The position numbers and the translations under genes are program-made. A DNA stretch of 64,000 bases from Alphaproteobacteria bacterium. GTDB lineage: Bacteria; Pseudomonadota; Alphaproteobacteria; Rhizobiales; GCA-2746425. This document shows, piece after piece, positions 37,043 to 54,615 of this stretch; positions within the stretch are counted from its first letter, which is position 1, and every line of letters starts with the position of its first letter. Below the pieces are notes generated by a model. That model made no database searches. It was given only the letters and a program-made list of their open reading frames with translations, and was not told the origin of the DNA. The stretch spans positions 124,001 to 188,000 of the forward strand of contig JANSWZ010000006.1 in NCBI GenBank assembly GCA_024743215.1, read 5' to 3'.

Positions 37043-37164
37043 TCAGAAACCGGAAAATCTAGCTTCCGGCTATCCAAATTTTGGTCTCAGTGCAGAGAGT
37101 TGGGTCTCAGGTCAGTGAGCACTCCGGAAGCCGCGCGTATGGGGCAACTAAACAGACCGTTCTT

Positions 37165-39139: not shown

Positions 39140-39703
39140 ATGAAAATCAACGGTAATGAAATTCGCCCCGGCAATGTGATCGAGCATCAGAACAGTATCT
39201 GGGCGGCGGTCAAGGTTCAGCATGTCAAACCCGGCAAGGGCGGCGCGTTTGCGCAGGTGGAGCTGAAAAACCTGCTGGATGGCCGCAAGCTGAATGAGCG
39301 GTTCCGCTCGGCAGCAACGGTGGAGCGGATACGCCTGGAGCAGAAGGACTTTCAGTTCCTTTATGCGGAAGGCGATATGCTGGTATTCATGGACACCACA
39401 ACTTACGAGCAACTGGAATTGCAGGCCGAATTTGTGGGTGACCGCGCCGTGTTCCTGCAGGACGGTATGCAGGTGACCGTGGAAATGTATGAAGAGCGCC
39501 CCATTGGCGTGGCGCTGCCCGATCAGGTAACGCTGGAAGTGTCCGAAACCGAGCCCGCGCTCAAGGGTCAGACCATCTCATCCTCCTACAAACCGGCGAT
39601 CATGGATAATGGCGCACGCGTTATGGTGCCGCCTTTCATCACTGTCGGTGAGCGCATTGTGGTGGATACCAATGAGCTGATTTATCTGCGACGCGGCGAG
39701 TAA
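39140..39703 (+). CDS. efp: Elongation factor P
   Basis: A 187-residue tRNA-shaped protein that rescues ribosomes stalled at polyproline. The KOW-like first domain ends in [10 protein letters not shown], whose lysine (residue 33) is the position modified in many bacteria. The OB domains follow with Y-E-E-R-P-I-G-V and the C-terminal G-E-R-I-V-V-D-T. Base composition returns to the normal level of the window exactly here. The next gene starts 13 bases later. Confidence 0.95.
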
Positions 39704-39715
39704 GGTTTTTCAGGC

Positions 39716-40507
39716 ATGGCACGCAGTGCACTTTTGAACATCATGGTTCAGGCCGCCACCAAGGCAGGCCGCAGCCTCACCCGCGATTTTGGCGAGGTCG
39801 AACAGCTACAGGTGTCCGTCAAGGGACCGGGGGATTTTGTCTCCGCAGCCGACACGAAGGCTGAAGAGATCATTGTTGAATCCCTGCAGAAATCCCGTCC
39901 TGACTGGGGCTTTCTGCTGGAAGAAGGCGGCGAGATCAAAGGCAGTGATCCGCTGCATCGCTGGATTGTCGATCCGTTGGACGGCACCACAAACTTCCTC
40001 CATTCACTGCCTTTCTTTGCGGTCTCCATTGGACTGGAGCGACAGGGGCAGCTGGTGGCCGGTGTGATCTATAACCCGATCACCGAAGAATTGTTCACCG
40101 CCGAAAAAGGTGGTGGCGCATTCATGAATGACCGGCGCATGCGCGTCGCCGCCCGCCGCAAATTGGCCGATGCCGCACTCAGCACCGGCATTCCCAATAT
40201 GGGCAGCAAGGCCCTTGGCCGCTATCTGGAAGAAGCAAAAGTCGCCAGCGCCCACGCATCAGCCGTGCGCGGTTTCGGCTCCGCAGCCATGAGCCTTGCC
40301 TATGTGGCAGCAGGTCGTCTGGATGGCTATTGGGAACATACGCTCAAGCCATGGGACATGGCAGCCGGCATCGTGCTGATCCGGGAAGCTGGCGGTTTCA
40401 TATGTGATATGTCCGGCGGTGAGCGCATGATGGAAACCGGCGGCATCATTGTCGGCAATGAAACCATCCGCGATTCCATCCGCAAAAACATCATTGAGCG
40501 AAACTAG
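39716..40507 (+). CDS. suhB: Inositol monophosphatase family protein
   Basis: A 263-residue magnesium-dependent phosphatase. Metal-binding motifs are intact: E-E-G-G, W-I-V-D-P-L-D-G-T-T-N-F (about residue 82) and W-D-M-A-A-G (about residue 220). It is of the SuhB group that cleaves inositol-1-phosphate and related sugar phosphates. It follows efp closely and is followed by an inverted-repeat element. Confidence 0.9.
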   Translation: MARSALLNIMVQAATKAGRSLTRDFGEVEQLQVSVKGPGDFVSAADTKAEEIIVESLQKSRPDWGFLLEEGGEIKGSDPLHRWIVDPLDGTTNFLHSLPFFAVSIGLERQGQLVAGVIYNPITEELFTAEKGGGAFMNDRRMRVAARRKLADAALSTGIPNMGSKALGRYLEEAKVASAHASAVRGFGSAAMSLAYVAAGRLDGYWEHTLKPWDMAAGIVLIREAGGFICDMSGGERMMETGGIIVGNETIRDSIRKNIIERN

Positions 40508-40545
40508 AATTTTTTAGCCAATTTGCAGGTTTAGGCTCATCCTAA

Positions 40546-40709
40546 GTGGACCCTCGGAACAAGTCCGAGGGTGACGTTGGGAGGGTGTGGCAACTCCGGT
40601 ACTAAGCTGCGTCTGCTGGGATCAGCTTACCGCACCTCTCCTACCATCAATTTGAGCCGATACCTGATACCGCCGCCGCCGTCATTCTCGGATTTATTCC
40701 GAGAATCCA
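40546..40709. repeat. Paired inverted palindromic repeats, copy 1
   Basis: Two palindromic units facing each other: CCCTCGGA-ACAAG-TCCGAGGG at 40551-40571 inside TGGA...TGAC, and TTCTCGGA-TTTAT-TCCGAGAA at 40685-40705 inside GTCA...TCCA. Separated by about 106 bases. It sits between the convergent suhB and L,D-transpeptidase genes. Similar pairs are at 42709-42850 and 50869-50959. Confidence 0.8.
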
Positions 40710-40718
40710 GACAACGTC

Positions 40719-41264
40719 CTAACCAATCCGCATTTTTGAACCACGCCGCGCAAAGCTGAGCGCGTGGTTCATGGTGGCGTGTGAAACCGCAATGCAGCCT
40801 TCTGTCGGGGTAAAGCCCGGCGCGGCAATGTGGAAGAAAATGGCACTGCCTCCGCCCGGCCTGCGCGGATGGATATTCTGGTCCAGCACCACAACCACAT
40901 CATATAATTGATCATCCCGCCACAACGTCTCATGACTGCCCGCAAAGGGCAGCGTTATGAGTTGATTGTAGCGCGCATCATGCGGGTCATCACACCAGCC
41001 ATCCAGCTCCAGCATGGGCCGCATCGGCAACTGCGTCACGGGCTTGGCCAGCCGGTCCGCCCGATAAAACCCGCAAAGCAGCGTGTAGGCCCCGGCAGGG
41101 CTGGCGCCATCGCCTTCGCGCTTTTGGGTGGTGATGCCACTGCGCCCCAGCGCACAGTCAAAACTGCGCCCGCCAAACTGCAACTGTCCTGTTGTCGCAG
41201 CCCGGTGCATGCATCGCACCTGAAAATCATGCTGCTGCACAGGATCAGGATCGGAAACCTGCAT
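40719..41264 (-). CDS. L,D-transpeptidase (YkuD) family protein
   Basis: A 181-residue protein with the YkuD catalytic block F-F-H-I-A-A-P-G-F-T-P-T-E-G-C-I-A-V, so the catalytic His and Cys are present. It lacks a signal peptide in the start used (ATG 41264, preceded by AAAGGG), which is unusual for an enzyme that should act on periplasmic peptidoglycan; the longer frame from 41351 does not add one either. A cytoplasmic or atypically exported role is possible. Confidence 0.78.
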   Translation of the reverse strand: MQVSDPDPVQQHDFQVRCMHRAATTGQLQFGGRSFDCALGRSGITTQKREGDGASPAGAYTLLCGFYRADRLAKPVTQLPMRPMLELDGWCDDPHDARYNQLITLPFAGSHETLWRDDQLYDVVVVLDQNIHPRRPGGGSAIFFHIAAPGFTPTEGCIAVSHATMNHALSFARRGSKMRIG

Positions 41265-41457
41265 AAAAAACCCTTTCCATCCCTTCACGCCCCCCTCACA
41301 GTGATTTGACAAAATGTCACCGCATCCACAGGGCACGCTTGCTTGCGCCATATTTCAAACAATGTTCTAAGACTGTTAAGCTTTTAACTCAATCGGACGT
41401 TTGAATTCCAACAACGCCCTGCTAGTTTCCCTGCCAGTTTCGGTGATGAGGCCCCTG

Positions 41458-42141
41458 ATGAATGAACGTAAAATTCTGATCGTCGATGATGACACAGATC
41501 TGCGCGAAGCCCTTGTAGAGCAACTTGCGCTGTATGAAGAGTTTGAGATTGCCGATGCGGACACAGCCGCCACCGGCATGGCCGCGGCACGCGATGGTCG
41601 GGTCGATCTGATGGTGATGGATGTGGGCCTTCCCGATATGGATGGCCGCGAGGCGGTGAAACTGCTGCGCAAAAACGGCTTTCGTGCCCCCATCATCATG
41701 CTGACCGGCCATGACACCGATGCCGACACGGTGCTGGGTCTGGAAGCGGGTGCTAATGATTATGTGACAAAACCCTTGCGGTTTGCTGTGCTGCTGGCAC
41801 GTATTCGCGCTCAGTTGCGCCAACATGAACACAGCGAAGACGCCACATTCTCCATCGGCCCTTATAATTTCCGTCCAAGCGCAAAGCTGCTGACCACCGA
41901 AGGCGGTGACAAGGTGCGCCTGACCGAAAAGGAAACAGCCATTTTGAAGTTTCTGCATCGTGCTGGTGACAAGGTTGTCACGCGCGATGTCTTGCTTCAC
42001 GAGGTCTGGGGCTATAATGCTGGTGTAACGACCCATACGCTGGAGACCCATATTTATCGCCTCCGCCAGAAGATCGAGGATGACCCGTCAAATGCGGAAA
42101 TCCTTGTCACTCAGGATGGTGGCTATAAGCTGGTTCCTTAA
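41458..42141 (+). CDS. cenR: OmpR-family response regulator, CenR-like
   Basis: A 227-residue regulator: receiver domain at residues 5-118 with D-D-D near the start, phosphoacceptor aspartate in V-M-D-V-G-L-P-D-M-D-G-R-E and conserved K-P-L; winged-helix DNA-binding domain at about 130-225 ending in V-T-T-H-T-L-E-T-H-I-Y-R-L-R-Q-K. The sequence is that of CenR of alphaproteobacteria, the cell-envelope regulator of Caulobacter. ATG 41458 is used, with GAGG six bases upstream. No histidine kinase is adjacent. Confidence 0.82.
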   Translation: MNERKILIVDDDTDLREALVEQLALYEEFEIADADTAATGMAAARDGRVDLMVMDVGLPDMDGREAVKLLRKNGFRAPIIMLTGHDTDADTVLGLEAGANDYVTKPLRFAVLLARIRAQLRQHEHSEDATFSIGPYNFRPSAKLLTTEGGDKVRLTEKETAILKFLHRAGDKVVTRDVLLHEVWGYNAGVTTHTLETHIYRLRQKIEDDPSNAEILVTQDGGYKLVP

Positions 42142-42215
42142 GTCCTGAACAACGGGATATTTGGGTACGAACTGTAGGTAACACGCATTAGGCACCACAT
42201 TGGGAAAGACATGTT

Positions 42216-42671
42216 GTGACAATCGAGCGCGACATTGAGGCACTGCGTCAGGTAATGATGTTTTCAGAGCTGAACAGCGAGCAGTTGCGTCTGCTTGCCT
42301 TCAGCGCGGAATCCGTAAAACTGGCCCCCAAGGAAATCCTGTTTCAGGAAGGCGATGTCGCCGGCTCCGGCTTTGTTGTTACCGAGGGCGAGATTCAGCT
42401 GCTTCAGCGCAGTGATGGAAGGTCCGTCTCTGTGGGCCGCTTGGGTCAGGGCTCGGTGGTCAATGAGCTGGCTTTAATCAGCGAAACATTGCGCCCGGCA
42501 ACAGCCATTGCCACCCAGGCCAGCGAAGTCATCAAAATTCGCCGCTCGCTGTTCGGCCGCTTTATCAATGAATATCCTGATATTGCCGTGCGGCTGGAAC
42601 AAAGCCTGCGCGGACGGCTCCAGGAAACCATCGGCCAACTGAAACGCGCCCAGCGCTCGCTGAAATACTAG
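42216..42671 (+). CDS. Cyclic nucleotide-binding domain protein without HTH
   Basis: A 151-residue protein consisting of a Crp/Fnr-type cNMP-binding fold: K-E-I-L-F-Q-E-G-D-V-A, G-E-I-Q-L-L, and L-G-Q-G-S-V-V-N-E-L-A-L-I (phosphate-binding region), then a C-terminal helix. The helix-turn-helix of true Crp/Fnr regulators is missing. Begins with GTG 42216. It follows the CenR-like gene on the same strand after 74 bases. Confidence 0.8.
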   Translation: MTIERDIEALRQVMMFSELNSEQLRLLAFSAESVKLAPKEILFQEGDVAGSGFVVTEGEIQLLQRSDGRSVSVGRLGQGSVVNELALISETLRPATAIATQASEVIKIRRSLFGRFINEYPDIAVRLEQSLRGRLQETIGQLKRAQRSLKY

Positions 42672-42708
42672 GGTCTGGATTCAACGCTCCATCTGCGCGC
42701 TACGGCCT

Positions 42709-42850
42709 GTGGATTCTCGGAACAAGTCCGAGAATGACGGCGGTGGGCGGCATGAGCTGTTAGCGTGAAATGTTGGCGTGAGACGTTGCGGTAAAACCAG
42801 CCTGGTTCACGCGCTTAACCGTCTCCCTCGGACTTGTTCCGAGGGTCCAC
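42709..42850. repeat. Paired inverted palindromic repeats, copy 2
   Basis: TTCTCGGA-ACAAG-TCCGAGAA at 42714-42734 (inside TGGA...TGAC) and the inverted CCCTCGGA-CTTGT-TCCGAGGG at 42825-42845 (inside GTC...TCCA). Located between the convergent cNMP-protein and MarR genes. Confidence 0.8.
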
Positions 42851-42861
42851 GCCGCCCAAAA

Positions 42862-43317
42862 TCACCGCTGCTCCAGATGATCCAGCCCGGATATCAGCGC
42901 ATTTGACGGGCCCTCCCCCAGCGCCTGCAACACATCCGCTTCAAATTTTCTGGCTTCCTCTATCAACGCTGCATAAACACGCCAGCCCTTTTTCGTCAGG
43001 GCCAGATGCTCGATACGCCGGTCAGCCCCGTCACTGGTACGCGCCAGCCATCCGCGTTGCTCCAGCGACACCACCGCACGGCTGACCTTGGTTTTATGCA
43101 TTGAGGAATGCTGTCCGATAAAGGTGGCGGTCACCGTGCCAAATTGGCCAATCGTGGCAAAAGCCCGCCATTCCGGCCGGGTCATGCCGGTATGTTTCTT
43201 GTAAATATCGGCAAATTCACGGCTCATGATTTCCGCAGCCCGTGCCAGACGGTAGGGCAGAAATTCTTCCAGCTTCAAAACCGTCTCAATTTCAGGTGCA
43301 GATGCCTGTTTTCCCAT
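42862..43317 (-). CDS. MarR family regulator, probably of homogentisate genes
   Basis: A 151-residue winged-helix regulator: helices around F-L-P-Y-R-L-A-R-A-A-E-I, DNA recognition region F-G-T-V-T-A-T-F-I-G-Q-H-S-S-M-H-K-T-K-V-S-R-A-V, and wing G-W-L-A-R-T-S-D-G-A-D-R-R. It is divergent from hmgA with 113 bases between the starts, which contain an inverted repeat. An HmgR-type local regulator of tyrosine/homogentisate catabolism is the natural reading. Confidence 0.85.
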   Translation of the reverse strand: MGKQASAPEIETVLKLEEFLPYRLARAAEIMSREFADIYKKHTGMTRPEWRAFATIGQFGTVTATFIGQHSSMHKTKVSRAVVSLEQRGWLARTSDGADRRIEHLALTKKGWRVYAALIEEARKFEADVLQALGEGPSNALISGLDHLEQR

Positions 43318-43346
43318 GACCGGTTCTCCCCCTCGCGCCGGTTGAT

Positions 43347-43377
43347 AGTTACATTTTCAATTGTTACAAATGAAACT
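43347..43377. promoter_or_regulatory. Inverted repeat between marR and hmgA, candidate operator
   Basis: Arms AGTTACATTT and AAATGAAACT (one mismatch) separated by 11 bases, with a direct repeat GTTACA at 43348 and 43363. It lies in the divergent promoter region, suitable for a MarR dimer. Confidence 0.55.
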
Positions 43378-43430
43378 AATAAAATCAATTGCGTGCGCGC
43401 CCCGGCGCGTCACCCAAAAGGGGATGGAAA

Positions 43431-44777
43431 ATGTCGGACCAGACCGCAGACAAGCCTGCCGCTGCATCAAACGCCGTCAGCTATATGCCCGGCTTTGGCA
43501 ATGATTTCGAAACCGAGAGCCTGCCCGGTGCCCTGCCCCAGGGCCAGAACAGCCCCCAGAAATGCGCTTATGGCCTCTATGCCGAGCAACTATCCGGTTC
43601 GCCCTTCACCGCACCACGCGGCACCAATGAACGCTCATGGCTCTATCGCATCCGCCCCAGCGTGCGCCACACCAGAGACTTTGTGGCGGTTGCGCGCCCG
43701 AACTGGAAAACAGCGCCCATTCATCTCGATAAAGCCCCCCCTCTTGGCCAGTATCGCTGGGACCCGGTGCCAATGCCGGACAAGCCTGTGAATTTTCTGG
43801 AGGGCCTTCAAACTGTCACAACAGCTGGCGATGCGCAGGGCCAGTCCGGCATGGCGTCTCACATCTTTGTCTGCAATGCCCCCATGGTGGATGATTACTT
43901 CTTCAACGCCGATGGGGAATTGCTCATTGTGCCGGAGATGGGTGCTTTGCGCATTTTCACGGAAATGGGCATCATGGATGTGGCATCCGGCGAAATTGCC
44001 CTGTTGCCACGCGGCATGTTCTTCAAGGTGGAACCACTGACAAAGAGTTGCCGCGGCTATGTCTGCGAGAATTACGGAGCCAAATTCACGCTGCCGGATC
44101 GCGGCCCCATTGGCGCAAACTGCCTTGCCAATCCGCGTGATTTCAAAACTCCTGTCGCCGCTTATGAAGACAAGGAGACCCCCTGCCGCGTCCACGTCAA
44201 ATGGTGCGGCTATTTCTATCAGACCGAGATCGGCCATTCACCACTGGATGTGGTGGCCTGGCACGGCAATTACACGCCTTACAAATACGATCTGGCCACC
44301 TTCTCGCCGGTTGGAGCCATCCTGTTCGATCATCCGGACCCATCCATCTTTACCGTCCTCACAGCCCCCTCAGGCGAAGAGGGGACAGCCAACATCGATT
44401 TCGTGATTTTCCCGCCACGCTGGATGGTGGCCGAACACTCCTTCCGGCCACCCTGGTATCACCGCAACATCATGAGCGAATTCATGGGGCTTATCTGCGG
44501 CCAGTATGATGCCAAGGAAGAGGGCTTTGTGCCCGGTGGCTTCAGCCTGCACAATCTGATGCTGCCCCACGGACCGGATCTGGATGCCTTTGAAAAAGCC
44601 GCCAATGTGGATTTGAAGCCGGTCAAGCTGGACGACACCATGGCCTTCATGTTCGAAACCCGCTTCCCGCAGCAGGTCACCGATCTGGCGATGCAGATGC
44701 CAACGCTGCAAAAGGATTACATTGATTGCTGGGCGGGTCTGAAAAAACATTTCAACGGCACCAAAGAGGGTTGCTGA
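43431..44777 (+). CDS. hmgA: Homogentisate 1,2-dioxygenase
   Basis: A 448-residue iron dioxygenase that opens homogentisate to maleylacetoacetate. Clear family segments: [12 protein letters not shown] at the start, [21 protein letters not shown], and N-F-L-E-G-L; the C-terminal half has [20 protein letters not shown] with an iron-binding His region and [13 protein letters not shown] 43431 follows GGGATGGAAA. No maleylacetoacetate isomerase gene is in the window. Confidence 0.96.
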
Positions 44778-44822
44778 GTGGTCCCGTGTGTTGTGGTGGC
44801 ATGCGTTCCCGATGCGCCTCGG

Positions 44823-45392
44823 TCAGCCGCCCATTTGCCAGGTTTTTACCGCTTCGACCGGCCACAAAAGCATCAGCACATTCAGCGCCAGCCCGTCGCG
44901 GATGATCCACATGGTTACCGCTTCAAACACCAGCACCAGCATCACCGTGGCGGCAACGGGCAAGCGCCGCGCCAGGTAGAACCCCAACAGCATAGCAAAA
45001 ATATCAGAGACGGAATTCAGCACGGAATCGCCAAAATAATCCAGCGAAATGGTCACTTCACGGTAGCGTTGAATGACGTAATTCGTGTTCTCGGCAATCT
45101 CCCAGGCCGCCTCCAGCGCAATCGAAATCAGCGCCTTGTTGCCAACAGAGCCCCTGCGCCAGACCAGCCACAGCACGAAATAGAAAATCATGCCGTGGAT
45201 CATGTGGGACGGCGTATACCAATCGCTGATGTGCTGGGAGCTTTCCGAACTCAGCGCATCCGCATGCCACAATTTGATGGTGCCGCAACTGCAGATCGGC
45301 TCGCGCCCCATCAGCAGCAAAATGATGGCAGTGCCGACAATCAGCCCCAGACCAATCAGAATGTGTTTGGACCGCATCCAGGTAAATCCCAT
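44823..45392 (-). CDS. DUF2585 (UPF0314) membrane protein, copy 1
   Basis: A 189-residue integral membrane protein of four to five helices. Family core: P-I-C-S-C-G-T-I-K-L-W-H, S-S-E-S-S-Q-H-I-S-D-W-Y-T-P-S-H, and S-L-D-Y-F-G-D-S-V-L-N-S-V. Two close cysteines (C-S-C) and several histidines suggest a metal or heme site. It follows copy 2 with six bases between them and shares the same layout, so the pair is a tandem duplication. Function unknown. Confidence 0.85.
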   Translation of the reverse strand: MGFTWMRSKHILIGLGLIVGTAIILLLMGREPICSCGTIKLWHADALSSESSQHISDWYTPSHMIHGMIFYFVLWLVWRRGSVGNKALISIALEAAWEIAENTNYVIQRYREVTISLDYFGDSVLNSVSDIFAMLLGFYLARRLPVAATVMLVLVFEAVTMWIIRDGLALNVLMLLWPVEAVKTWQMGG

Positions 45393-45398
45393 CTGACT

Positions 45399-45992
45399 CT
45401 ATTGCCCCCACTGCCAAGCGCGCACCGCATCCATCGGCCAGATCAGCATCAATGTGCTAAGACCAAGACCATCGCGGATCAACAGCATCATGCTGCCTTC
45501 CAACGCCAATGCAAGCACAAGTGTCGCATAGATCGGCAGATACCGTGCCAGCACAAAGCCAGCCATCATGGCGAACAGGTCAAACACGGAATTGATGATA
45601 CTGTCGCCCAGATAATGCTGCGATACGGTGACAATGCGAAACCGTTCTATGACAAAATTCGTGTTCTCGACAATCTCCCACGCAACCGCCGTCAGCGTGC
45701 CGATGGCAAACCGCGTTTCCAGGGCCATACCTGGCCAGAAACGGGCCAGCAGCGCATAGGCCAGAATGCCGTGCAACATGTGCGAGAAAGTATAGAAATC
45801 GGCCACATGCTGAGAATTCTCGTAGCTGAAAACCTCATGCTGCCAAATCTTCACGGTGCCGCAAAAACAAATCCAGTCGCGACCCATCCACAACAGCAGC
45901 AACGCCGTGGCCAGGGTGACAAGAAGTGCACCGACAATCACGGGACCCACAGCCAAATGCGTGTTTTTGAGAGAAGGCGTCGACAAATGCAC
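45399..45992 (-). CDS. DUF2585 (UPF0314) membrane protein, copy 2
   Basis: A 197-residue paralogue of the downstream gene, with I-C-F-C-G-T-V-K-I-W-Q-H, S-Y-E-N-S-Q-H-V-A-D-F-Y-T-F-S-H and S-Q-H-Y-L-G-D-S-I-I-N-S-V in matching positions. The second helix region is more alanine-rich. It is the first gene of the two-gene leftward unit between hmgA and the FAH-family gene, both of which run rightward. Confidence 0.85.
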   Translation of the reverse strand: MHLSTPSLKNTHLAVGPVIVGALLVTLATALLLLWMGRDWICFCGTVKIWQHEVFSYENSQHVADFYTFSHMLHGILAYALLARFWPGMALETRFAIGTLTAVAWEIVENTNFVIERFRIVTVSQHYLGDSIINSVFDLFAMMAGFVLARYLPIYATLVLALALEGSMMLLIRDGLGLSTLMLIWPMDAVRAWQWGQ

Positions 45993-46063
45993 AAAAGTCC
46001 CCGAACATCACCCCAAGAATTCCTTGCAGACCCTGCAAGACAATCAAGAAGGAAAAATGGCGA

Positions 46064-47071
46064 ATGAAACTTGCCTCACTCAGAAATGACACGCGAGACG
46101 GGCAATTGGTGGTGGTCTCAAAAGATCTGACCCAATGTTCTGAGGTCAGTCACATAGCCGATACACTTCAGGAGGCACTCGACAATTGGCCCGTGCTGGC
46201 ACCGCGCCTCCAACGTGTTGCCGATGGCGTTGAAACCGGTGCCCAGCCAACACAGCGTTTTCGGGAGCATGATGCGCTCTCACCCCTCCCCCGCGCCTAT
46301 CAATGGGCTGACGGTTCGGCCTATGTGAACCATGTGGAACTGGTGCGCAAAGCGCGTGGTGCAAACATGCCTCCCTCGTTCTGGGAAGATCCGCTGATGT
46401 ATCAGGGCGGCTCGGATTCCTTCATCGCACCCCGTGATCCCATCAAGCTGGCCGATGAGGCCTATGGCATTGATATGGAAGGTGAGCTGGCCGTTATTGT
46501 TGATGATGTGCCCATGGGCTGCGACATCGCCACAGCCAGCGCCGCCATCCGCCTCATCATGCTGGTCAATGATGTGTCCCTGCGCGCTTTGATTCCCGGT
46601 GAATTGGGCAAGGGCTTTGGCTTCTTCCACTCCAAACCCTCCAGCGCCTTCTCTCCAGTTGCTGTCACCCCCGATGAATTGGGAGATGCATGGGATGGCA
46701 GCAAACTTCATCTGCCTCTGGATGTGGATTTGAATGGAGAGGCTTTTGGCCGCGCCAATGCAGGCATCGACATGACCTTCGATTTCGGCCAGCTCATTGC
46801 CCATGCGGCCAAAACACGGCCCCTGGGCGCCGGGACCATCATCGGTTCAGGCACCGTTTCCAACAAGCTGAATGACGGACCCGGCAAACCGGTTTCAGAA
46901 GGCGGTGTTGGCTATTCCTGCATTGCCGAAATCCGCATGATTGAAACCATCGAAGACGGCACACCGGCCACGCCTTTCATGCAGTTCGGCGACAGCGTGC
47001 GCATCGAAATGAAAGACAAGGATGGCCATTCCATTTTTGGTGCCATTGAACAAAGCGTGGAGAAAGCATAA
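46064..47071 (+). CDS. Fumarylacetoacetate hydrolase family protein
   Basis: A 335-residue FAH-family enzyme, expected to cut fumarylacetoacetate to fumarate and acetoacetate as the last step of homogentisate breakdown. Metal-binding glutamates are in the D-M-E-G-E-L-A-V-I-V-D-D-V region (about residue 145), followed by V-N-D-V-S-L-R and P-L-G-A-G-T-I-I-G-S-G-T-V-S-N. The N-terminal domain is longer than in the short FAHD1-type proteins, as in bacterial FahA. Its stop overlaps the MBL start (TAATG). Confidence 0.9.
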   Translation: MKLASLRNDTRDGQLVVVSKDLTQCSEVSHIADTLQEALDNWPVLAPRLQRVADGVETGAQPTQRFREHDALSPLPRAYQWADGSAYVNHVELVRKARGANMPPSFWEDPLMYQGGSDSFIAPRDPIKLADEAYGIDMEGELAVIVDDVPMGCDIATASAAIRLIMLVNDVSLRALIPGELGKGFGFFHSKPSSAFSPVAVTPDELGDAWDGSKLHLPLDVDLNGEAFGRANAGIDMTFDFGQLIAHAAKTRPLGAGTIIGSGTVSNKLNDGPGKPVSEGGVGYSCIAEIRMIETIEDGTPATPFMQFGDSVRIEMKDKDGHSIFGAIEQSVEKA

Positions 47072-48021
47072 TGGCCAAGGCATTCGCATCTGCCGGAGAC
47101 ATGGCAGACAAGAAAATCTCCTTTTCCGAAATCGGTGAAGGCCTTTGGGCATTCACCGCCGAAGGTGATCCGAACACCGGCGTCATCATCGGCGATGACA
47201 GTGTCATGATTGTCGACGCACAGGCCACACCGCGCATGGCTGCACAAGTCATTGAGAAAATTCGCACAGTCACTGACAAACCCATCAGCCATGTGGTCCT
47301 GACCCATTATCATGCAGTGCGCGTGTTGGGCGCGTCAGGCTACAATGCCACAGACATCATCATGTCCGAAAAAGCCCGCTCCATGGTGGTGGAACGCGGT
47401 CAGGAAGACTGGGATTCAGAATTTGCCCGCTTTCCGCGCCTGTTTCAGGGCCATGAAAGCATTCCCGGCCTCACATGGCCGACACTCACCTTCAATGACC
47501 GCATGACCGTCTATCTGGGCAAGCGCCGGGTTGATCTCATGTTTATGGGCCGCGCCCATACAGCAGGCGATATTGTGGCCTATGTGCCTGATCAGAATGT
47601 CATGTTCACCGGTGACATCGTGGAATATCACTCCGCCTGCTATTGCGGCGATGGTCATTTCCATGACTGGCCTGGCACATTGCAGAAAATCCGCAATTGG
47701 GATCTGGATGCCATTGCGCCAGGCCGTGGCGATGCGCTGGTTGGCACACAAATGGTCAATGCCGCGCTGGATTCCACCGCAGATTTTGTCACCTCGACCT
47801 ATCGCAGTGTCGCGCGCATTGCTCTGGCTGGCGGTTCCCTGAAAGAAGCGTTTGAAGCCTGCCGTGCCGCCTGTGACAGCAAATTCGGCGACTACGCGAT
47901 CTACGAACATTGCCTGCCGTTCAATGTTGCCCGCGCCTATGATGAAGCACGCGACATCGACACACCCCGCATCTGGACAGCGGACAGAGACCGGGAGATG
48001 TGGGAAAGCCTTCAGGGATAA
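47071..48021 (+). CDS. MBL-fold hydrolase with altered metal motif
   Basis: A 316-residue metallo-beta-lactamase-fold protein. The expected H-x-H-x-D-H is here H-Y-H-A-V-R, so the second-site aspartate/histidine are missing; the downstream H (G-R-A-H-T-A-G-D) and D (F-T-G-D-I-V) ligands are present. It may bind only one metal or have another activity. It overlaps the FAH gene before and the FAD monooxygenase after (TAATG both times), so it belongs to the aromatic catabolism operon. Substrate unknown. Confidence 0.82.
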   Translation: MAKAFASAGDMADKKISFSEIGEGLWAFTAEGDPNTGVIIGDDSVMIVDAQATPRMAAQVIEKIRTVTDKPISHVVLTHYHAVRVLGASGYNATDIIMSEKARSMVVERGQEDWDSEFARFPRLFQGHESIPGLTWPTLTFNDRMTVYLGKRRVDLMFMGRAHTAGDIVAYVPDQNVMFTGDIVEYHSACYCGDGHFHDWPGTLQKIRNWDLDAIAPGRGDALVGTQMVNAALDSTADFVTSTYRSVARIALAGGSLKEAFEACRAACDSKFGDYAIYEHCLPFNVARAYDEARDIDTPRIWTADRDREMWESLQG

Positions 48022-49625
48022 TGGCCTACAGCTACAAGACACAGCCCTATGTGCCTCCCAAAGCCCTGACAGAGGCCGAACCACGCCACAGGGTCGCCAT
48101 CGTGGGTGCAGGACCCATTGGCCTTGCCATGGCCATTGACCTTGCCCTACACGGCGTTCCAAGCGTTATCTTTGCGCAAGGGAACAGTGTATCGGTTGGG
48201 TCACGGGCCATTTGCTGGGCCAAACGCACCCTGGAAATTTTTGACCGGTTGGGCGTTGGCGACCGCATGCTGGCAAAAGGCATCACCTGGAAAATCGGCC
48301 GCCTGTTTCACGGCAAAAAGGAAGTCTACAGCTTCGATCTGCTGCCCGAAGAGGGCCACAAAATGCCAGCCTTCATCAACCTCCAGCAATATTACGTCGA
48401 GGACTATCTGATCGACCGGATTGCCGATTTCCCGGACCTGATTGATCTGCGTTGGCAAAATGAAGTGGTGAGCCATACAGACAAGGGCGACCATGTTGCC
48501 CTGCAGATCAGCACACCCGATGGCACATATGAGGCGGAAGCCGATTATTATCTGGCTTGCGATGGCGCGCGCTCCCCAACCCGCAAACGCATGGGGCTGC
48601 GCTTTACCGGCGAAACCTTTGAAGAACGCTTTCTGATTGCCGATGTGCACATGCCGCAAAGCCCGTTTGGCGACGGCCCGGCAGAACGCTGGTTCTGGTT
48701 CAAGCCGCCGTTTCATCAGGGCCAGTCGGCACTGTTGCACAAACAGCCCGACGATATTTACCGCATTGATCTGCAGCTTGGTTTTGATGCGGATCCGGAT
48801 GTGGAAAAACAGCCGGATCGTGTGATACCGCGCATTCGCCAAATGGTTGGCGATCTGCCCTTCGAGCTGGACTGGGTATCGGTCTACACCTTTACCTGCG
48901 CACGGTTGGAGCGCTTCCTTCATGGCCGAGTGATCTTTGTCGGCGACAGCGCACACATCGTCTCACCCTTCGGCGCCAGAGGCGGCAATGGCGGCATTCA
49001 GGATGTGGATAATCTGGGCTGGAAACTGGCCGCAATTCTGCAGCAGCGGGCCAGTGAGGAATTGCTGGAAAGCTACAATGAAGAACGCACGTTCGGCTCT
49101 GACGAAAACATCCGCAATTCAGCCCGCGCGACCAATTTCATGACGCCCAAAACGGATATGGAACATATTTTCCGCGATGCGGTACTGGATCTGGCCAAAA
49201 CAGAACCCTTTGCCCGCAAGCTGGTCAATTCCGGACGCCTGTCGACACCCTGTTCCTTGAATGGCCTTAACCTTCAGAGCAGTGCAAATGATAATCTCAT
49301 CGGTCAGGCCTGCCCGGACGCGCCTCTAGGTGCGCTCAGCCAATCAAACTGGTTGCTGACTGAAATCGCACACACAGACATGAACACGTTCAAACTCCTG
49401 CTGCCATATGGGTGGACCAGCCCAAGCATGTCAGATGTGCCAGACTTGCCAGACATAGCCGTCATCAACATCGACGAGGCAAATCTGCACTACCAGAACC
49501 GGTTTGGCCCTTCAGCCATATTGCTGCGGCCGGATCAGCATGTGCTGGCAAGATTTACCACACAGGCGGATCTTGAAGCCGGATTGCAATTCACTGTGAA
49601 AACCATACTGGATCAACGAACATGA
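48021..49625 (+). CDS. FAD-dependent aromatic monooxygenase (MhpA/PheA-type)
   Basis: A 534-residue flavoprotein hydroxylase. FAD-binding motifs: V-G-A-G-P-I-G-L-A-M-A (GxGxxG, about residue 28), the D-G-A-R-S segment, and G-D-S-A-H-I-V-S-P-F-G-A-R-G-G-N-G-G-I-Q-D (GD motif). The C-terminal thioredoxin-like domain of phenol-type hydroxylases is short. Together with hmgA and FAH it probably hydroxylates an aromatic acid, but homogentisate synthesis itself normally uses Hpd, which is not in the window. Confidence 0.88.
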   Translation: MAYSYKTQPYVPPKALTEAEPRHRVAIVGAGPIGLAMAIDLALHGVPSVIFAQGNSVSVGSRAICWAKRTLEIFDRLGVGDRMLAKGITWKIGRLFHGKKEVYSFDLLPEEGHKMPAFINLQQYYVEDYLIDRIADFPDLIDLRWQNEVVSHTDKGDHVALQISTPDGTYEAEADYYLACDGARSPTRKRMGLRFTGETFEERFLIADVHMPQSPFGDGPAERWFWFKPPFHQGQSALLHKQPDDIYRIDLQLGFDADPDVEKQPDRVIPRIRQMVGDLPFELDWVSVYTFTCARLERFLHGRVIFVGDSAHIVSPFGARGGNGGIQDVDNLGWKLAAILQQRASEELLESYNEERTFGSDENIRNSARATNFMTPKTDMEHIFRDAVLDLAKTEPFARKLVNSGRLSTPCSLNGLNLQSSANDNLIGQACPDAPLGALSQSNWLLTEIAHTDMNTFKLLLPYGWTSPSMSDVPDLPDIAVINIDEANLHYQNRFGPSAILLRPDQHVLARFTTQADLEAGLQFTVKTILDQRT

Positions 49626-49807
49626 CCGCTACTCCGGACAATCTCAGCCCTCACGGTGATGAGTTCTATGCAGCCTTGATGCAGGCCCATGAAGGGTTGG
49701 CGCTTGCGGACAGTCAGGCACTGAACGCCCGTCTCGTGCTTTTGCTGGCCAATGAAGTGGGTGATCTGAAGCGGCTGAAGCAGCTTCTCGATAAAGCAAA
49801 ACCATAA
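49622..49807 (+). CDS. DUF2783 small protein
   Basis: A 61-residue helical protein. Its ATG overlaps the monooxygenase stop (ATGA), so it is coupled and probably an accessory of that enzyme. DUF2783 proteins of this size occur next to FAD monooxygenases in homogentisate clusters; the core is F-Y-A-A-L-M-Q-A-H-E-G-L and L-L-L-A-N-E-V-G-D. Confidence 0.8.
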   Translation: MTATPDNLSPHGDEFYAALMQAHEGLALADSQALNARLVLLLANEVGDLKRLKQLLDKAKP

Positions 49808-49875
49808 CGCCAGCCCTTAACAATTGGGCAAGCGGAACCGGTTAATATGGTGGGTATCAAAACACCGGAGCCAGC

Positions 49876-50844
49876 ATGTCCCAGGCCCTCACATTTGCCG
49901 ATCCAAAGCTGCTTGATCACCGACGGGCCTGGCTCAGCCATCTTGAAAATGGCAAACGCCACACCCCAAAGACCATTGAGGCCTATGAGCGCGATTCCCG
50001 TCAGTTTCTGACATTCCTGTCGCAGCATCTGGGCGCATCAGCCGGCGTGCGGCACCTGCGGGAATTGAGAATTACCGACTTGCGCAGCTTTCTGGCGTCC
50101 CGGCGTGGCAGCGGCAGTGGCGCACGCTCATTGGCGCGCAGCCTTGCTGGTATCCGTTCATTTTTTGCCTTTTTGCGCAAACAGAACATTGTCGATGTCA
50201 CGGCTGCAAATGCGCTGACGACTCCCAAACAACCCAAAAGCCTGCCCCGTCCGGTAGGCGCTTCAGAAGCCAGCGCAATGCTGGAAGAAGCGCTTGAGCC
50301 AAACGTTGAGTCCGAGGCCTGGGTCGGTGCCCGTGATGCCGCAATTCTCAGCCTGCTCTATGGCTGCGGATTACGTATTTCCGAGGCTTTGGGCCTATCT
50401 TTAAAAGATGTGGATGCACTTCAAACAGGAGTGATGAAGGTTACCGGCAAAGGCGGCAAGGAACGCCTTGTACCCGTTCTACCAGCAGTCATCGAAGCGG
50501 TCAGCCTGTATGGTTCGCTCTGCCCCTTCATTATCGCCTATGCCGACAATCCCGAAGCACCCCTGTTTTTCGGTGTGCGCGGCAAGCGGTTGAACCCGCG
50601 CATAGTCCAAAAAGCCGTGGAAGATTTGCGCATGCGTCTTGGCCTGCCGTCCAGCGCCACGCCCCATGCCCTGCGCCACGCCTTTGCAACCCATTTGCTG
50701 GCAGGTGGCGGCGATCTGCGCACCATTCAGGAACTTCTGGGCCATGCCAGCCTGTCGACGACGCAAATCTACACGCAAGTGGATACACGGCATCTGCTGT
50801 CTGTTTACACCAAGGCGCATCCCCGCATGATTGCGGGTGAGTGA
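49876..50844 (+). CDS. xerC: Tyrosine recombinase XerC
   Basis: A 322-residue site-specific recombinase that resolves chromosome dimers at dif. N-terminal SAM-like core-binding domain at residues 10-110, catalytic domain after that with R (G-L-R-I-S-E-A-L-G), K (G-K-G-G-K-E-R), H-x-L-R-H (H-A-L-R-H-A-F), H (L-G-H-A-S-L-S-T) and the tyrosine in T-Q-I-Y-T-Q. Full length, and beside lolA and ftsK, so it is the housekeeping enzyme rather than a phage or integron integrase. GGAG precedes the ATG. Confidence 0.92.
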   Translation: MSQALTFADPKLLDHRRAWLSHLENGKRHTPKTIEAYERDSRQFLTFLSQHLGASAGVRHLRELRITDLRSFLASRRGSGSGARSLARSLAGIRSFFAFLRKQNIVDVTAANALTTPKQPKSLPRPVGASEASAMLEEALEPNVESEAWVGARDAAILSLLYGCGLRISEALGLSLKDVDALQTGVMKVTGKGGKERLVPVLPAVIEAVSLYGSLCPFIIAYADNPEAPLFFGVRGKRLNPRIVQKAVEDLRMRLGLPSSATPHALRHAFATHLLAGGGDLRTIQELLGHASLSTTQIYTQVDTRHLLSVYTKAHPRMIAGE

Positions 50845-50868
50845 GGAACTTTGCAGGCGGTCAAAGCT

Positions 50869-50959
50869 AGGTTCTCGAAACAAGTCCGAGAACGACGGCT
50901 GGTTTGGGGTCGAAAACATCGCCACCACCGTCATCCTCGGACTTGTTCCAAGGATCCAC
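50869..50959. repeat. Paired inverted palindromic repeats, copy 3
   Basis: GTTCTCGAAACAAGTCCGAGAAC-like unit at 50871-50893 and the inverted TCATCCTCGGA-CTTGT-TCCAAGGATCCA unit at 50931-50958. The arms are more diverged than in copies 1 and 2, and the pair is closer together. It lies between the convergent xerC and lolA genes. Confidence 0.75.
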
Positions 50960-50976
50960 AGCGGCGCGTCAGAAAC

Positions 50977-51654
50977 CTATTGCCGTTCGGAAATCGCAAT
51001 CCGGCCATAGGGAATCTTGAACAGCTCTTTGTTCCAGTCCATGCCACCCTTCAGATTATACACAGCGACCGTCGTATCCAGTCCCTGAGCATCGGTTACG
51101 GTCCATTGCCGCAATTCCTTGGTGGCGCGGTCAAACAGCAATGTCACCCTGCCTTTTCCGAACATGCTTTCCTCGACCATTGTCACGGTAACAATATCGG
51201 CTTCAACCTTGATGTCATTAACTTTGGAATCGTTCAGGAAATCCACCTTGTCGGACAATAGAAACCGCAAAGGTGTTTTTGACAAAGGCCACAAATCCCA
51301 GGTTTGCAAAGCGCGATCGTGAATCACCACCGATTTGCCATCCGACATGATCTGAATCTTGGATGGGGAATCGTAACGGAAGTGAATCTTTCCAGGCCGA
51401 TCCAGCGCAAACACGCCTTCTGCCTTTTCACCATTGGGGCCAAACTGGACAAAATCGCCACCCATAGTCCGCATGTCGTTCAGACTTGCAGCAATGTCTT
51501 GCACCACCTGACCATTTGTCTGCGCCCGTGCCGGCTGAATCATCGTAGCAAGTGCCAGCATGATCACAAACCACAGCGAGAACAAGCCAAAAGCCAGTCG
51601 CACATTTGATGTCACAGCTTTGACCCTTGCGGTCTGCGATGAATTTTGAGTCAT
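50977..51654 (-). CDS. lolA: Outer-membrane lipoprotein carrier LolA
   Basis: A 225-residue periplasmic chaperone that carries lipoproteins from the inner to the outer membrane. Long N-region, then hydrophobic core A-F-G-L-F-S-L-W-F-V-I-M-L-A-L-A and cleavage near A-R-A-Q. The mature domain has the LolA eleven-strand pattern, with D-R-P-G-K-I-H-F-R-Y and L-R-Q-W-T-V-T-D-A-Q-G. ATG 51654 is used instead of TTG 51666. It lies downstream of ftsK on the same strand. Confidence 0.9.
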   Translation of the reverse strand: MTQNSSQTARVKAVTSNVRLAFGLFSLWFVIMLALATMIQPARAQTNGQVVQDIAASLNDMRTMGGDFVQFGPNGEKAEGVFALDRPGKIHFRYDSPSKIQIMSDGKSVVIHDRALQTWDLWPLSKTPLRFLLSDKVDFLNDSKVNDIKVEADIVTVTMVEESMFGKGRVTLLFDRATKELRQWTVTDAQGLDTTVAVYNLKGGMDWNKELFKIPYGRIAISERQ

Positions 51655-51750
51655 GTCACTTTCCAATCGACAACGTATTTCGCTCTTATGAATCAGCTAG
51701 GAAGCTACTGTGGCAAAATCACGGCTGCCACAAAATGGAACTAATCCGAT

Positions 51751-54615
51751 TCAAATGGTCTCTTCTGCATTGCCAACCAGAATATCACGTTTTCCGGCAT
51801 GGTTGGGCGCACTAATCACGCCTTCTTCTTCCATTTTTTCAATGATGGACGCCGCACGATTATATCCGATCGAGAGCCGTCTTTGCACATAGCTGGTTGA
51901 GGCCTTCTTGTCCCGCAGCACGATGGCAACGGCCTGATCATAAAGATCACCCTCGCCGCCGTCGCTGCTGCCACCGGTCATGGCCTCCAGAACAGCAGAG
52001 GTTTCAACTTCATCCTCATTGGTAATGGCTTCAAGATACTCCGGCACGCCCTGACTTTGCAGATGCGCAACCACTTCTTCAACTTCATTGTCACCCACGA
52101 ATGGACCGTGGACACGCTGAATACGCCCGCCACCGGCCATGAACAACATGTCACCCATGCCCAGAAGCTGCTCAGCACCCTGTTCACCCAGAATGGTTCG
52201 GCTATCGATCTTGGACGTCACCTGGAACGAAATCCGAGTTGGGAAGTTGGCCTTGATCGTTCCGGTAATGACATCCACAGACGGACGCTGTGTGGCCATC
52301 ACCACATGAATACCGGCAGCACGCGCCATCTGCGCAAGTCGCTGAACGGTGCCTTCAATTTCCTTGCCGGCGACCATCATCAGATCTGCCATCTCGTCGA
52401 TGATCACAACGATATATGGCATTGGCTCGAGTTTCAGCTCTTCCTGCTCGTAAATCGCCTCACCCGTCTCATGGTCAAATCCGGTCTGGACGGTACGGGT
52501 GATCACTTCGCGTTTTTTGGATGCCTGTTTCACCCGGCTGTTGAAGCCATCAATGTTTCGCACGCCAAGCTTGGACATTTTCTTGTAGCGGTCTTCCATT
52601 TCCCGCACAGTCCATTTCAGCGCCACAACCGCCTTTTTCGGGTCGGTCACAACAGGTGTCAGCAAATGCGGAATACCGTCATAAACCGACAGCTCCAGCA
52701 TTTTTGGATCAATCATGATCAAGCGACATTCTTCAGGCCGCATCCGGTACAGGATCGACAGGATCATGGTATTGATCGCAACGGATTTACCAGACCCTGT
52801 AGTACCAGCCACCAGCAAATGCGGCATCTTTGCCAGATCAGCAATAACGGCCTCACCGCCAATGGTTTTACCAAGGCACAAGGCCAGCTTCGCCTTGGTT
52901 TTCTCAAAATCGGTGGAATCCAGCAATTCGCGTAAATACACAGTTTCACGCTTTGAATTTGGCAACTCGATACCAATGGCATTGCGGCCGGGAATGACAG
53001 CTACACGGGCAGCAATAGCGCTCATGGAACGGGCAATATCATCGGCCAATCCGATCACACGGGAGGATTTGATGCCCGGTGCCGGCTCCAGCTCATAAAG
53101 CGTGACAACGGGACCAGGGCGAACATTGATGATTTCGCCGCGTACACCAAAGTCTTCCAGCACACCTTCCAGCAATCTTGCATTCTGCTCCAGCGCATCT
53201 GTGTTCAAATTGGCACTGGCAGTCGTTTGCACTGGCTCGGACAGAACATGCAACGATGGCAATTCATAGTCAGCATTACCCAGTAAATCCGGTTGTGCTT
53301 CGCGGCTGGCGCGGCGACCCGGTTTAGGCTTGGCCTTGGGCACGGTCACGCGATTTTGAGGCGCTGCCTGCGCACGTTGTACCGGTTCGCGCTGTGCAGG
53401 AGCCCGTTGCGCCGGTGGTCTTTCAGCAGTTGTACGCTGCATCGGCACAGGACGCGCAGCACTTACCTGAGTGGCCAGAGGATTAATCCTGACCTCCTGG
53501 TCTTGATAAGGCGCTTCATTGGCCCAGGCTCCACCCGGCTGATCATATTGATCAAGCTCGGCTTGCTGATCTTCATAAGCCGCCCACTCACCATCTGCCC
53601 ACTCGCCCTCTGGCATGTGCTCTTCCTGATCCCATGCTTCCTGCATTTGGTCTTCGTAATAATCCGCCGATTCCTGAGGAACCGCTTGATGAGCCGCAGA
53701 CATGACTGGCTCATTGCGTTGCATCACACGCACGCGCGATTTCCGGTTTGCGGTTGGTTTTGGGCGGGCAGACACGATCTTTCGAAAAGACCGTGCGCCC
53801 AGTGCTTTCGTGCTCAGCGCCATATGGGTCAGCGCGCCAAAACCATAGGCAACTGCCGATCCAACACCAAACCCGCGGGAGACTGGTTCGTCAAACTCAT
53901 CCAGTGGCGCGTCCATAGGCGACGGTAGATCTGGTTCAGATTGTGGCGAAATGGACCCTGCAGGAGATCGGCTCCAGGCGGTCAGAACAAAACATGCGAA
54001 ACACGCCACTCCCAGTATCAGAGCCGTCAGATAGCCAATTACGCCTTTGAACAGATCTCCAAAGGCGGCAACGGGCAGCCAGATCATGACATCCCCAACC
54101 ACGCCGCCAAGCCCCATCGGCAATGGCCAATTGGACGTCACCGGAAGCGCAGACATGGTGCCAGCAGCAAACACCATCGCCAGAACCGTATAGCCAAGTC
54201 GGCGCTTGAAACGATAAAGGCTTTGGCCAAACATCATGCGCCAGCCCCATATCGCCAGTATCAGGACAAGAAGAATGGAGCCAAGACCAAAGAACTGCAT
54301 GAACAGATCAGACGCAATTGCGCCTGGCGCACCCAAAGCATTTTGAACCGGGCCCGAGGCCGCAAAATTGAGGCTGGGATCCTCAACTGACCATGTGGCA
54401 AGAGCAGCTGCTGCTGCTGCGGCTCCTGCAATCAGAATCAGGCCTGTGGCCGCCGACAAATTACGCCCAAGCCAGTAACGAAAGCCACGTCGCTCGGAAA
54501 TTGCCGGAGCCTGATTGGCATAGGCCAGTTGCTCTGCAATTTGTTGATCGGCGTCATAGTCCACATAATTCAGTGGGCCGGCCGTATGGGCTTGAAAAGA
54601 AGCAGCATTACGCAT
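51751..54615 (-). CDS. ftsK: DNA translocase FtsK
   Basis: A 954-residue divisome protein. Four hydrophobic segments in residues 45-260 anchor it at the septum; a proline/glutamine/arginine-rich linker (repeats of P-A-Q-R type) follows; the motor has Walker A G-T-T-G-S-G-K-S and Walker [12 protein letters not shown]; the gamma domain at the end ([16 protein letters not shown]) recognises KOPS and activates XerCD. ATG 54615 overlaps the aminotransferase stop codon; the frame from 54681 would lie inside that gene. xerC lies close by, fitting its partnership in dimer resolution. Confidence 0.94.

Follow-up and report, generated by a model that had tools for sequence, protein, structure and literature searches.

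Inverted pairs of CGTC-tagged REP units at convergent gene junctions of an alphaproteobacterial genus: inheritance in place and inverted spacers

The window, a stretch of 64,000 nucleotides from a Rhizobiales genome, carries one palindrome twice, in opposite orientation, at each of three gene junctions. What kind of element are these pairs, and how do they come to stand, and to stay, between genes that run toward each other? We examined the genome of the window (G000) together with four further genomes of its genus (G001 to G004), among which G002 is the sister species and G003 is more distant.

Paired hairpins and their gene junctions

The three hairpin pairs (W1, W2, and W3; Table 1) were all confirmed. 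Each is a head-to-head dimer of units of about 30 bases, and each lies at a convergent junction according to gene calls made with our own dicodon script, which are not a curated annotation. The arrangement given in the preliminary description is thus present and far beyond chance; its interpretation of the pairs stands in part. The exact 17-base core CTCGGAACAAGTCCGAG occurs in three of the six window arms and the remaining arms are one or two bases off. The TGGA and TGAC borders are found in four arms; the W2 right arm has AGAC for TGAC, and the W3 left arm has TAGG and CGAC. No larger conserved element was seen around the window dimers, and Rfam returned nothing above the gathering score in the window and six loci.

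Table 1. Arms, spacers, and flanking genes of the window dimers (window coordinates)
Feature	Position	Strand	Description
Inositol monophosphatase family gene	39716..40507	+	left of W1; Inositol_P (Pfam)
W1 left arm	40547..40576 (29-mer 40548-40576)	+	tail TGG, 9-bp stem, outer pairs CCC/GGG, loop ACAAG, tag GACG, head inward
W1 spacer	40577..40679	.	103 b
W1 right arm	40680..40709 (29-mer 40680-40708)	-	outer pairs TTC/GAA, loop ATAAA
YkuD L,D-transpeptidase-domain gene	40719..41351	-	right of W1 (Pfam)
Cyclic-nucleotide-binding-domain gene	42216..42671	+	left of W2; cNMP_binding (Pfam)
W2 left arm	42710..42739 (29-mer 42711-42739)	+	TTC/GAA; paired change TAC/GTA in G002
W2 spacer	42740..42819	.	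80 b
W2 right arm	42820..42849 (29-mer 42820-42848)	-	CCC/GGG, tag side AGACG
MarR family gene	42862..43317	-	right of W2 (Pfam)
Phage-integrase-family gene	49876..50844	+	left of W3; Phage_integrase (Pfam)
W3 left arm	50868..50897 (29-mer 50869-50897)	+	8 differences from G002 counterpart, highest among 18 arms
W3 spacer	50898..50928	.	31 b
W3 right arm	50929..50958 (29-mer 50929-50957)	-
LolA gene	50977..51666	-	right of W3 (Pfam)

The same preference extends over the genome. In the 5.09 Mb of G000, the exact core occurs 17 times, against about 0.0007 expected by chance, and 28 times with up to two mismatches, against two for the pattern read backwards. The genome has 11 dimers, of which 10 lie at convergent junctions, compared with 44 of 309 background junctions (P ~3e-8); within the window, 11 of 59 junctions are convergent. 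A 400-kb background sample of G000, made up of twenty stretches at offsets that we set rather than drew at random, held no REP unit, its 44 convergent junctions included. Three of the 11 dimers fall inside 10.4 kb (simulated P = 0.002, with contigs treated as one line). With solos included, 14 of 18 clusters in G000 are convergent (3 unidirectional, 1 divergent), as are 23 of 33 in G001 (8 unidirectional, 2 undetermined) and 13 of 15 in G002 (2 unidirectional). Neighboring units less than 300 b apart are mostly in the +- arrangement: 11 in G000, beside one ++ case of decayed units in direct orientation; 18 in G002, beside 4 -+; and 43 in G001, beside 13 -+ and 2 --. The -+ neighbors are located within arrays. 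Cores with up to one mismatch number 77 in G001 and 37 in G002; the locus analysis covered the G002 cores apart from three (1876313, 1996780, and 4591810), and in G001 it did not extend to further BLAST matches at 87426, 2185499, and 3683315; one G001 locus (L109) gave no unit past the filter.

Paired, REP-like units at convergent junctions are therefore what the genome-wide count returns, and neither random gene orientation nor a predominance of single units, the outcomes named beforehand as contrary, was found. The dimers follow closely on stop codons, near where the two converging transcripts have their 3′ ends; among the 10 convergent dimers of G000, 7 have both stop codons within 40 b of the arms. 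The earlier suggestion that they mark insertion where harm is low is compatible with these data but is not proven by them.

An old repeat family, inherited in place

The window pairs belong to the CGTC-tagged REP super-family (Di Nocera et al. 2013, PMC3733652), whose units they join head to head. The tag GACG, which is CGTC on the other strand, is present in 145 of 154 units, a set limited to units with at most two mismatches on the tag side. Nine stem pairs, a 5-base loop, and a TGG/CCA tail match the 8–9 bp stem, 4–5 b loop, and CCA-like tail of CGTC-REPs. Head-to-head dimers predominate and the junctions are convergent and unidirectional, again as in that family; the tag is not of the GTAG class that marks REPINs and RAYT-associated repeats. 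The pairing of the 9-bp arm hairpin has been kept through paired changes: both sides changed in 52 cells, compared with 18.6 in shuffles, and 92.9% of cells are paired, a fraction inflated by the unit filter, which tolerated no more than two stem mismatches. The outer stems of the two arms are unlike in 52 of 72 dimers. PMC3733652 describes CGTC-REPs in every alphaproteobacterial order, with no dedicated transposase, and sees no obvious reason why unlike-arm dimers are so frequent, although it proposes that unlike arms may protect dimers from enzymatic clearance.

Synteny shows the orthologous junction to be occupied as well in G002 for 10 of the 11 G000 dimers and in G001 for 7; for one dimer (C16), whose orthologue was absent among the fetched loci, orthology was counted as not established. 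In G003, the orthologous junctions of W1, W2, and W3 are empty, with just 6 b between both stop codons at W1. Arms differ between G000 and G002 at 26 of 522 positions (5%; 18 arms), and spacers diverge clearly more, their forward identities omitting C14 and C15 because these are inverted and W1 because G002 carries an array there. Arm-specific stem variants are stable between species, as at C3:86k, where the left arm has TCC and the right arm CCC in G000, G001, and G002. For most sites, synteny thus shows that dimers already stood at these junctions before G000, G001, and G002 split and were passed down there from then on.

Spacers, in turn, can change orientation. Comparing G000 with G002, the C14 spacer scores 10 forward and 44 in reverse (best of 200 shuffles, 17), and the C15 spacer scores 14 forward and 88 in reverse (best of 200 shuffles, 16); the flanking genes at both sites keep their orientation. 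The three window spacers show no inversion relative to G002, and that of W1 aligns forward with spacers 1 and 4 of a four-dimer array at the orthologous G002 junction. Two sites alternate between dimer and solo while keeping the same stem type: C12:457k is a solo in G000 and a dimer in G002, and C4:472k is the reverse. Both solo units are symmetric. Across the 13 sites at which G000 and G002 were compared, a flip or a symmetric solo occurs at four of six like-arm sites and at none of seven unlike-arm sites (Fisher P = 0.02), with classes drawn by hand after the data had been seen and single-arm loss (one site per class) excluded. If an array copy that is inverted at one unlike-arm site is included, the comparison becomes four of six versus one of seven (P = 0.10).

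Reshaping in place and its alternatives

We consider it probable that these are old CGTC-REP dimers that were remodeled where they stand, through template switching in replication or through arm-to-arm recombination. Two inverted arms would offer a substrate for DNA rearrangement during replication, either through template switching at the hairpins or through short arm-to-arm recombination, and the products may be inverted spacers, tandem arrays, and symmetric solos that resemble two joined half-arms. Against this reading, some 29 b of arm is short for RecA recombination. In addition, free exchange should make arms alike, yet 52 of 72 dimers have unlike outer stems. The unflipped window dimers and the one direct pair of decayed G000 units also count against it. 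In its favor, template switching is reported to invert spacers and homogenize arms in yeast (PMC8604942), and a further study reports that such switching can both generate and repair hairpin stems (PMC8794818). The inversions are known from comparison between species and between copies, and the direction of change is judged from a few species. A tentative extension, to which we give somewhat less than an even chance, is that like-arm dimers undergo spacer flips or reduction to a solo whereas unlike-arm dimers are frozen, making these slow, enzyme-free invertible and collapsible hairpin pairs; such freezing would account for the many dimers with unlike arms.

Arm conservation could equally reflect selection for an RNA or DNA function, and the dimers near transcript 3′ ends may be mRNA 3′ structures or may merely be tolerated there. 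The preliminary description had proposed bidirectional terminators. Between 36000 and 55900 of the window, we found 22 terminator-like sites, none of them on a dimer; shuffles give 21.8, and because the number is no higher than this the scan is a weak test. On that test the canonical intrinsic terminator, a GC-rich hairpin with a T-run, is rejected, which leaves room for a role at mRNA 3′ ends. In such a role, each single arm or else the long hairpin would shield or terminate the two transcripts that converge there, and the arms would be kept by selection. The closeness of the dimers to both stop codons, their very stable folds (z of -5.0 to -7.9 for five strands folded), the lower divergence of arms than of spacers, and their persistence at orthologous junctions all agree with it. 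However, besides the lack of terminator-like sites, only about a dozen junctions in the genome are so equipped and none of the 44 convergent sample junctions is, so the dimers are not a general device, and G003 does without them at the same three junctions. The outer three stem pairs are Watson-Crick within an arm in 62 of 66 cells in G000 and 102 of 108 in G002, but between arms in only 40 of 66 and 58 of 108, which disfavors selection for the long hairpin as the sole force. We regard selected mRNA 3′ elements as possible, though doubtful.

REPIN-type dimers, which a RAYT moves in trans, have the same anatomy, a pair of inverted REPs around a hairpin-forming spacer (PMC3116915), and the family is indeed amplified in the genus, but the tag is CGTC rather than GTAG, the G000 sites are mostly common to G002 rather than new, and the matching REP transposase that the preliminary description proposed to look for was not found. 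PF01797 gave no RAYT at E<=0.001 in G000 and none over its cut-off of 23 in G001–G004, the weak matches there being 14.2 bits in G004 and 11.9 bits in G003; NF047646 gave none at E<=0.01 in the five genomes. The search was confined to RAYT and to these two models, which, as controls, place 5 of 14 known genomes over cut-off (PF01797, E<=0.001) and match 6 of 14 with one over cut-off (NF047646), leaving room for a RAYT too diverged for both or since lost. RAYT mobilization in the present genomes is rejected on this ground, and the dimers are probably not moved by RAYT now; the REPIN account as a whole is improbable. Two candidates for an autonomous element among the fetched loci also failed: the four proteins scanned from a 7.2-kb G001 island between units (sulfatase, TctB, Peripla_BP_3, and TctC) include no transposase, and the gene with units on both sides (G001 L113, G000 L065) is a porin (Porin_2), again with no transposase.

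The MITE-like aspect proposed early on finds no larger element at the window dimers; what does exist is a MITE-like, dimer-carrying element in G001, not found in the other four genomes. It measures 450–540 b, has a REP dimer inside and related ends (TAG-TGTG...CAATAGGTTG), and two of its copies have orthologous sites without it in G000 and G002, at which no clear target duplication was seen. Among its 16 copies, 4 have the inner segment turned around relative to the outer flanks, and BLAST gave pieces on both strands. When a partner element was sought by its terminal-repeat pattern, G001 yielded 13 sites and G004 two, with one control hit in each; 10 of the 13 fall in the 16 aligned copies, and the sites read were those other than 4474798 and 4638491. 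The G000 dimers might then be MITE remnants, mobilized through their own terminal repeats by an IS transposase and reduced to their REP arms. We think this unlikely: a search started from one copy leaves the element body unmatched in G000, G002, G003, and G004, where the matches listed comprise only units and a few adjoining bases, and the closeness of both stop codons to the arms (within 40 b in 7 of 10 convergent dimers of G000) leaves no room for the outer flanks of such an element. Least likely of all are invertons, in which a site-specific recombinase would flip the spacer. Spacers do invert between inverted arms, but the integrase-family gene beside W3, which we take to be XerC-like, is the one case seen in a look at part of the sites, W3 is unflipped, and flips occur mainly at like-arm dimers, which fits homology or hairpin pairing.

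Significance and relation to known systems

The kind of dimer is known from CGTC-REPs; its spacer behavior appears new, as no description of spacer inversion in REP dimers was found in the literature searched, including the consulted text of PMC3733652 and, by word search, PMC12306157. Within one genus, dimers can be traced junction by junction, showing that they can persist by inheritance while their hairpins stay paired and their spacer can flip. A mutational origin of dimer conservation thereby becomes testable against selection for function. More broadly, inheritance in place with a changing, sometimes flipped spacer hints at how REP repeats persist without a known transposase.

Enterobacterial BIMEs are tandem arrays of alternating REPs; the arrays of G001 and G002 are built likewise, with another tag and sequence. 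The yeast template-switch system (PMC8604942) shares spacer inversion between short inverted arms, but concerns inverted repeats in yeast genes rather than a dispersed bacterial repeat family. Pseudomonas REPINs (PMC3116915) likewise pair inverted REPs across a spacer that is less conserved, and they too show a predicted hairpin and paired changes; they are RAYT-associated, whereas the dimers here carry the CGTC tag and no RAYT was found. The CGTC-REPs of PMC3733652, in the sections used, agree in tag, 9-bp stem, 5-base loop, CCA tail, head-to-head dimers, convergent and unidirectional junctions, common unlike-arm dimers, and no transposase linkage. Beyond what we found reported in those sections, the dimers of this genus also display orthologous persistence between species, spacer inversion, and symmetric solos that may be read as collapsed dimers.

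REP dimers at convergent gene junctions

The three inverted pairs reported for the window in a preliminary description are real, and they are members of the described super-family of CGTC-tagged REPs. Read from its tag end, a unit consists of CGTC, a 9-bp stem, a 5-base loop (CTTGT, more rarely TTTAT) and CCA, and the CGTC ends of each window dimer point at each other across the spacer. The alphaproteobacterial host genome (G000; 5.09 Mb, 19 contigs) contains 28 cores at ≤2 mismatches, including 17 exact ones; chance alone would give about 0.0007 exact cores, and the backwards pattern used as a control gives 2. Its units comprise 11 head-to-head dimers together with solo and decayed units, and two decayed units stand in direct orientation.

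The location between convergent genes, also noted in that description, holds genome-wide: by our own gene calls, 10 of the 11 G000 dimers occupy convergent junctions. The stop codons of both genes lie 7–65 bases from the dimer in eight of these ten, and 70–140 bases away in the other two. The genes on either side of the eleventh dimer are codirectional, and the end of the upstream one extends into the left arm of the dimer. As background, twenty 20-kb stretches of G000 contained 309 junctions, of which 44 (14%, with 13% of the intergenic bases) were convergent, and no unit. Against this sampled background, the probability of at least 10 convergent dimers in 11 is 3e-8 or 1e-8. The window itself has 59 junctions, 11 of them convergent.

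Positions of REP dimers and associated features (L-numbers, loci examined; G001 and G003, congeneric genomes)
Feature	Location	Position	Observation
W1 dimer	Window	40547-40709	Spacer 103 bases
W2 dimer	Window	42710-42849	Spacer 80 bases
W3 dimer	Window	50868-50958	Spacer 31 bases
Local cluster	Window	40548-50957	3 of the 11 G000 dimers inside 10.4 kb; simulated P = 0.002
Neighboring dimers	G000, C4		Two further dimers 6 kb apart
Units on both sides of porin gene	G000	L065:5929-8043	Decayed
Units on both sides of porin gene	G001	L113:2996-6839	Long alternating arrays; putative orthologue of the G000 porin
Duplicated lolA 3′ end	G001, W3 junction	L133:16000-16650	Second dimer, spacer unrelated to the first
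MITE-like element	G001	16 loci among L093-L121	REP dimer inside
Island	G001	L120:3081-10299	7.2 kb; sulfatase, TctB, Peripla_BP_3 and TctC genes, with a dimer on each side (spacers similar, 93 and 94 bases); only one REP site at this junction in G000 and G002
Variant units	G003	L180-L183	CCCCGG-type stem and further variants; group of units at L183

Inheritance junction by junction

Four congeneric genomes were searched for the core at ≤1 mismatch: G001 has 77 copies, the sister species G002 has 37, the more distantly related G003 has 6 and G004 has none. Two of 16 genomes from other families of the order hold one copy each, which is background level because two others give one backwards control match each. 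The loci examined covered all listed G001 sites, 34 of the 37 G002 cores and the G003 sites, and junction orthology was assigned from reciprocal best proteins around G000 sites (median amino-acid identity of flanking proteins 94% for G000–G002, 70 pairs; 87% for G000–G001, 44 pairs). The orthologous junction is occupied for 10 of the 11 G000 dimers in G002 (once by a solo unit) and for 7 of the 11 in G001; none of the loci examined contains an orthologue of the C16 dimer. At the W2 junction of G001, the MarR and homogentisate dioxygenase (Pfam) genes are missing from the stretch and there is no unit. The orthologous junctions of W1, W2 and W3 carry no unit in G003, where the two stop codons at the W1 junction are separated by just 6 bases, and no unit was found in the G004 stretch examined for the window junctions. 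Because these G003 junctions are empty, the dimers were gained before the split of G000, G001 and G002, or else were lost in G003.

Each arm tends to retain its own stem variant, designated by the outer three stem bases. The dimer at C3:86k has a left TCC and a right CCC arm in G000, G001 and G002, and that at C4:466k likewise has CCC and TTC in these species; the exception, C4:472k, has unlike arms in G001 only. Such retention speaks against repeated fresh insertion. Over nine orthologous dimers (18 arms), comparison of G000 with G002 gives 26 arm differences in 522 positions (5.0%), and a single W3 arm accounts for 8 of these. Spacers aligned forward are 67–88% identical over aligned columns and the short outer flanks 62–100%, and the majority of spacers cannot be aligned between G001 and G000 or G002.

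In a set of 69 distinct units, pairing holds in 92.9% of the stem cells, and 52 cells are changed on both sides relative to the commonest pair, versus 18.6 in shuffles, counts that the admission filter of ≤2 stem mismatches biases toward pairing. Neither value was reached in 500 shuffles; 12 of 500 reached the number of pairs with double-sided change and 39 of 500 that of further pair types. The entire dimer is also predicted to be able to fold as a single long hairpin (five strands, z −5.0 to −7.9). However, the outer three pairs are Watson-Crick within arms in 62/66 cells of G000 and 102/108 of G002, versus 40/66 and 58/108 between arms, a contrast that is weaker in G001 (217/258 versus 193/258). 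Thus, the best-maintained structure is the short hairpin of each arm, since pairing is kept more within than between arms.

Spacer flips, solo units and a composite element

At two sites, the G000 spacer matches the reverse complement of its G002 counterpart (C14, score 44 versus 10 forward, best of 200 shuffles 17; C15, 88 versus 14, best of 200 shuffles 16), and the flanking genes keep the same orientation in both genomes. At C3:86k, G002 has two dimers, with the spacer of the second inverted relative to the first. C12:457k holds one symmetric unit (TGGA...TCCA) in G000 and a dimer with two TAC arms in G002; C4:472k holds a dimer with two TCC arms in G000 and a symmetric unit in G002. A symmetric solo would be the expected remnant if two like arms lost their inner halves. 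One whole arm has been lost in G000 at each of two further sites. There are also arrays, one of four dimers at the W1 junction of G002 and others at several sites in G001. The window dimers all have unlike arms and show no spacer flip relative to G002. With arm classes drawn by hand after the data were seen, flips or symmetric solos occur at 4 of 6 like-arm versus 0 of 7 unlike-arm sites (13 compared; P = 0.02), or versus 1 of 7 if the inverted array copy is counted (P = 0.10), a hint that unlike arms protect dimers against flipping and collapse.

In G001, 16 dimers have a common spacer (roughly 70–80% identical) and common outer flanks, one of ∼100 bases and the other of ∼150, giving an element of ∼450–540 bases. 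In 4 of the 16 copies, the stretch that the arms enclose is flipped with respect to the two flanks, and BLAST accordingly returns opposite-strand pieces at 655k, 1051k, 1754k and 2913k. With one copy as query, the matches listed comprise only units and a few neighboring bases in G000, G002 and G003, and none in G004. For two copies, the orthologous sites in G000 and G002 lack the element, and at one of them the two stop codons in G000 are ∼3 bases apart. A third G001 dimer, outside the element, is absent from both genomes in an alignment too diverged to place its ends. The element ends tend to begin TAG-(A/C)TGTG...CAATAGGTTG, and this relatedness suggests a MITE-type element that acquired a REP dimer. 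No clear target duplication was seen at the element and no autonomous partner was found. Separately, the G001 island possibly integrated through recombination between REP sites.

Mobility, mechanism and function

A search for a matching REP transposase had been suggested; two models (PF01797 and NF047646) found no REP-associated tyrosine transposase (RAYT) over cut-off in the five genomes (G000–G004); PF01797 gave two weak sub-cut-off matches, in G003 and G004. Spacer inversion and stem mending have both been described as products of replication template switching (PMC8604942, PMC8794818). We infer that the dimers are probably old and currently immobile, and that template switching driven by the hairpins, or recombination between arms, probably reshapes them, because no RAYT was found over cut-off in the five genomes and both flips and stem mending are described products of template switching. 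As to the suggestion that the dimers act as bidirectional terminators, none of 22 terminator-like sites at 36000-55900 lies on a window dimer, in a scan whose shuffles give 21.8 sites, so termination in its classical form is unlikely. The dimers may protect mRNA 3′ ends, or may simply be tolerated there.

In the literature searched, we found no description of dimers that are inherited at individual junctions and undergo spacer flipping and collapse, or of the hinted protection by unlike arms. CGTC-REPs have been reported to lack a dedicated transposase (PMC3733652), and the finding of no RAYT over cut-off in G000–G004 agrees with that report.
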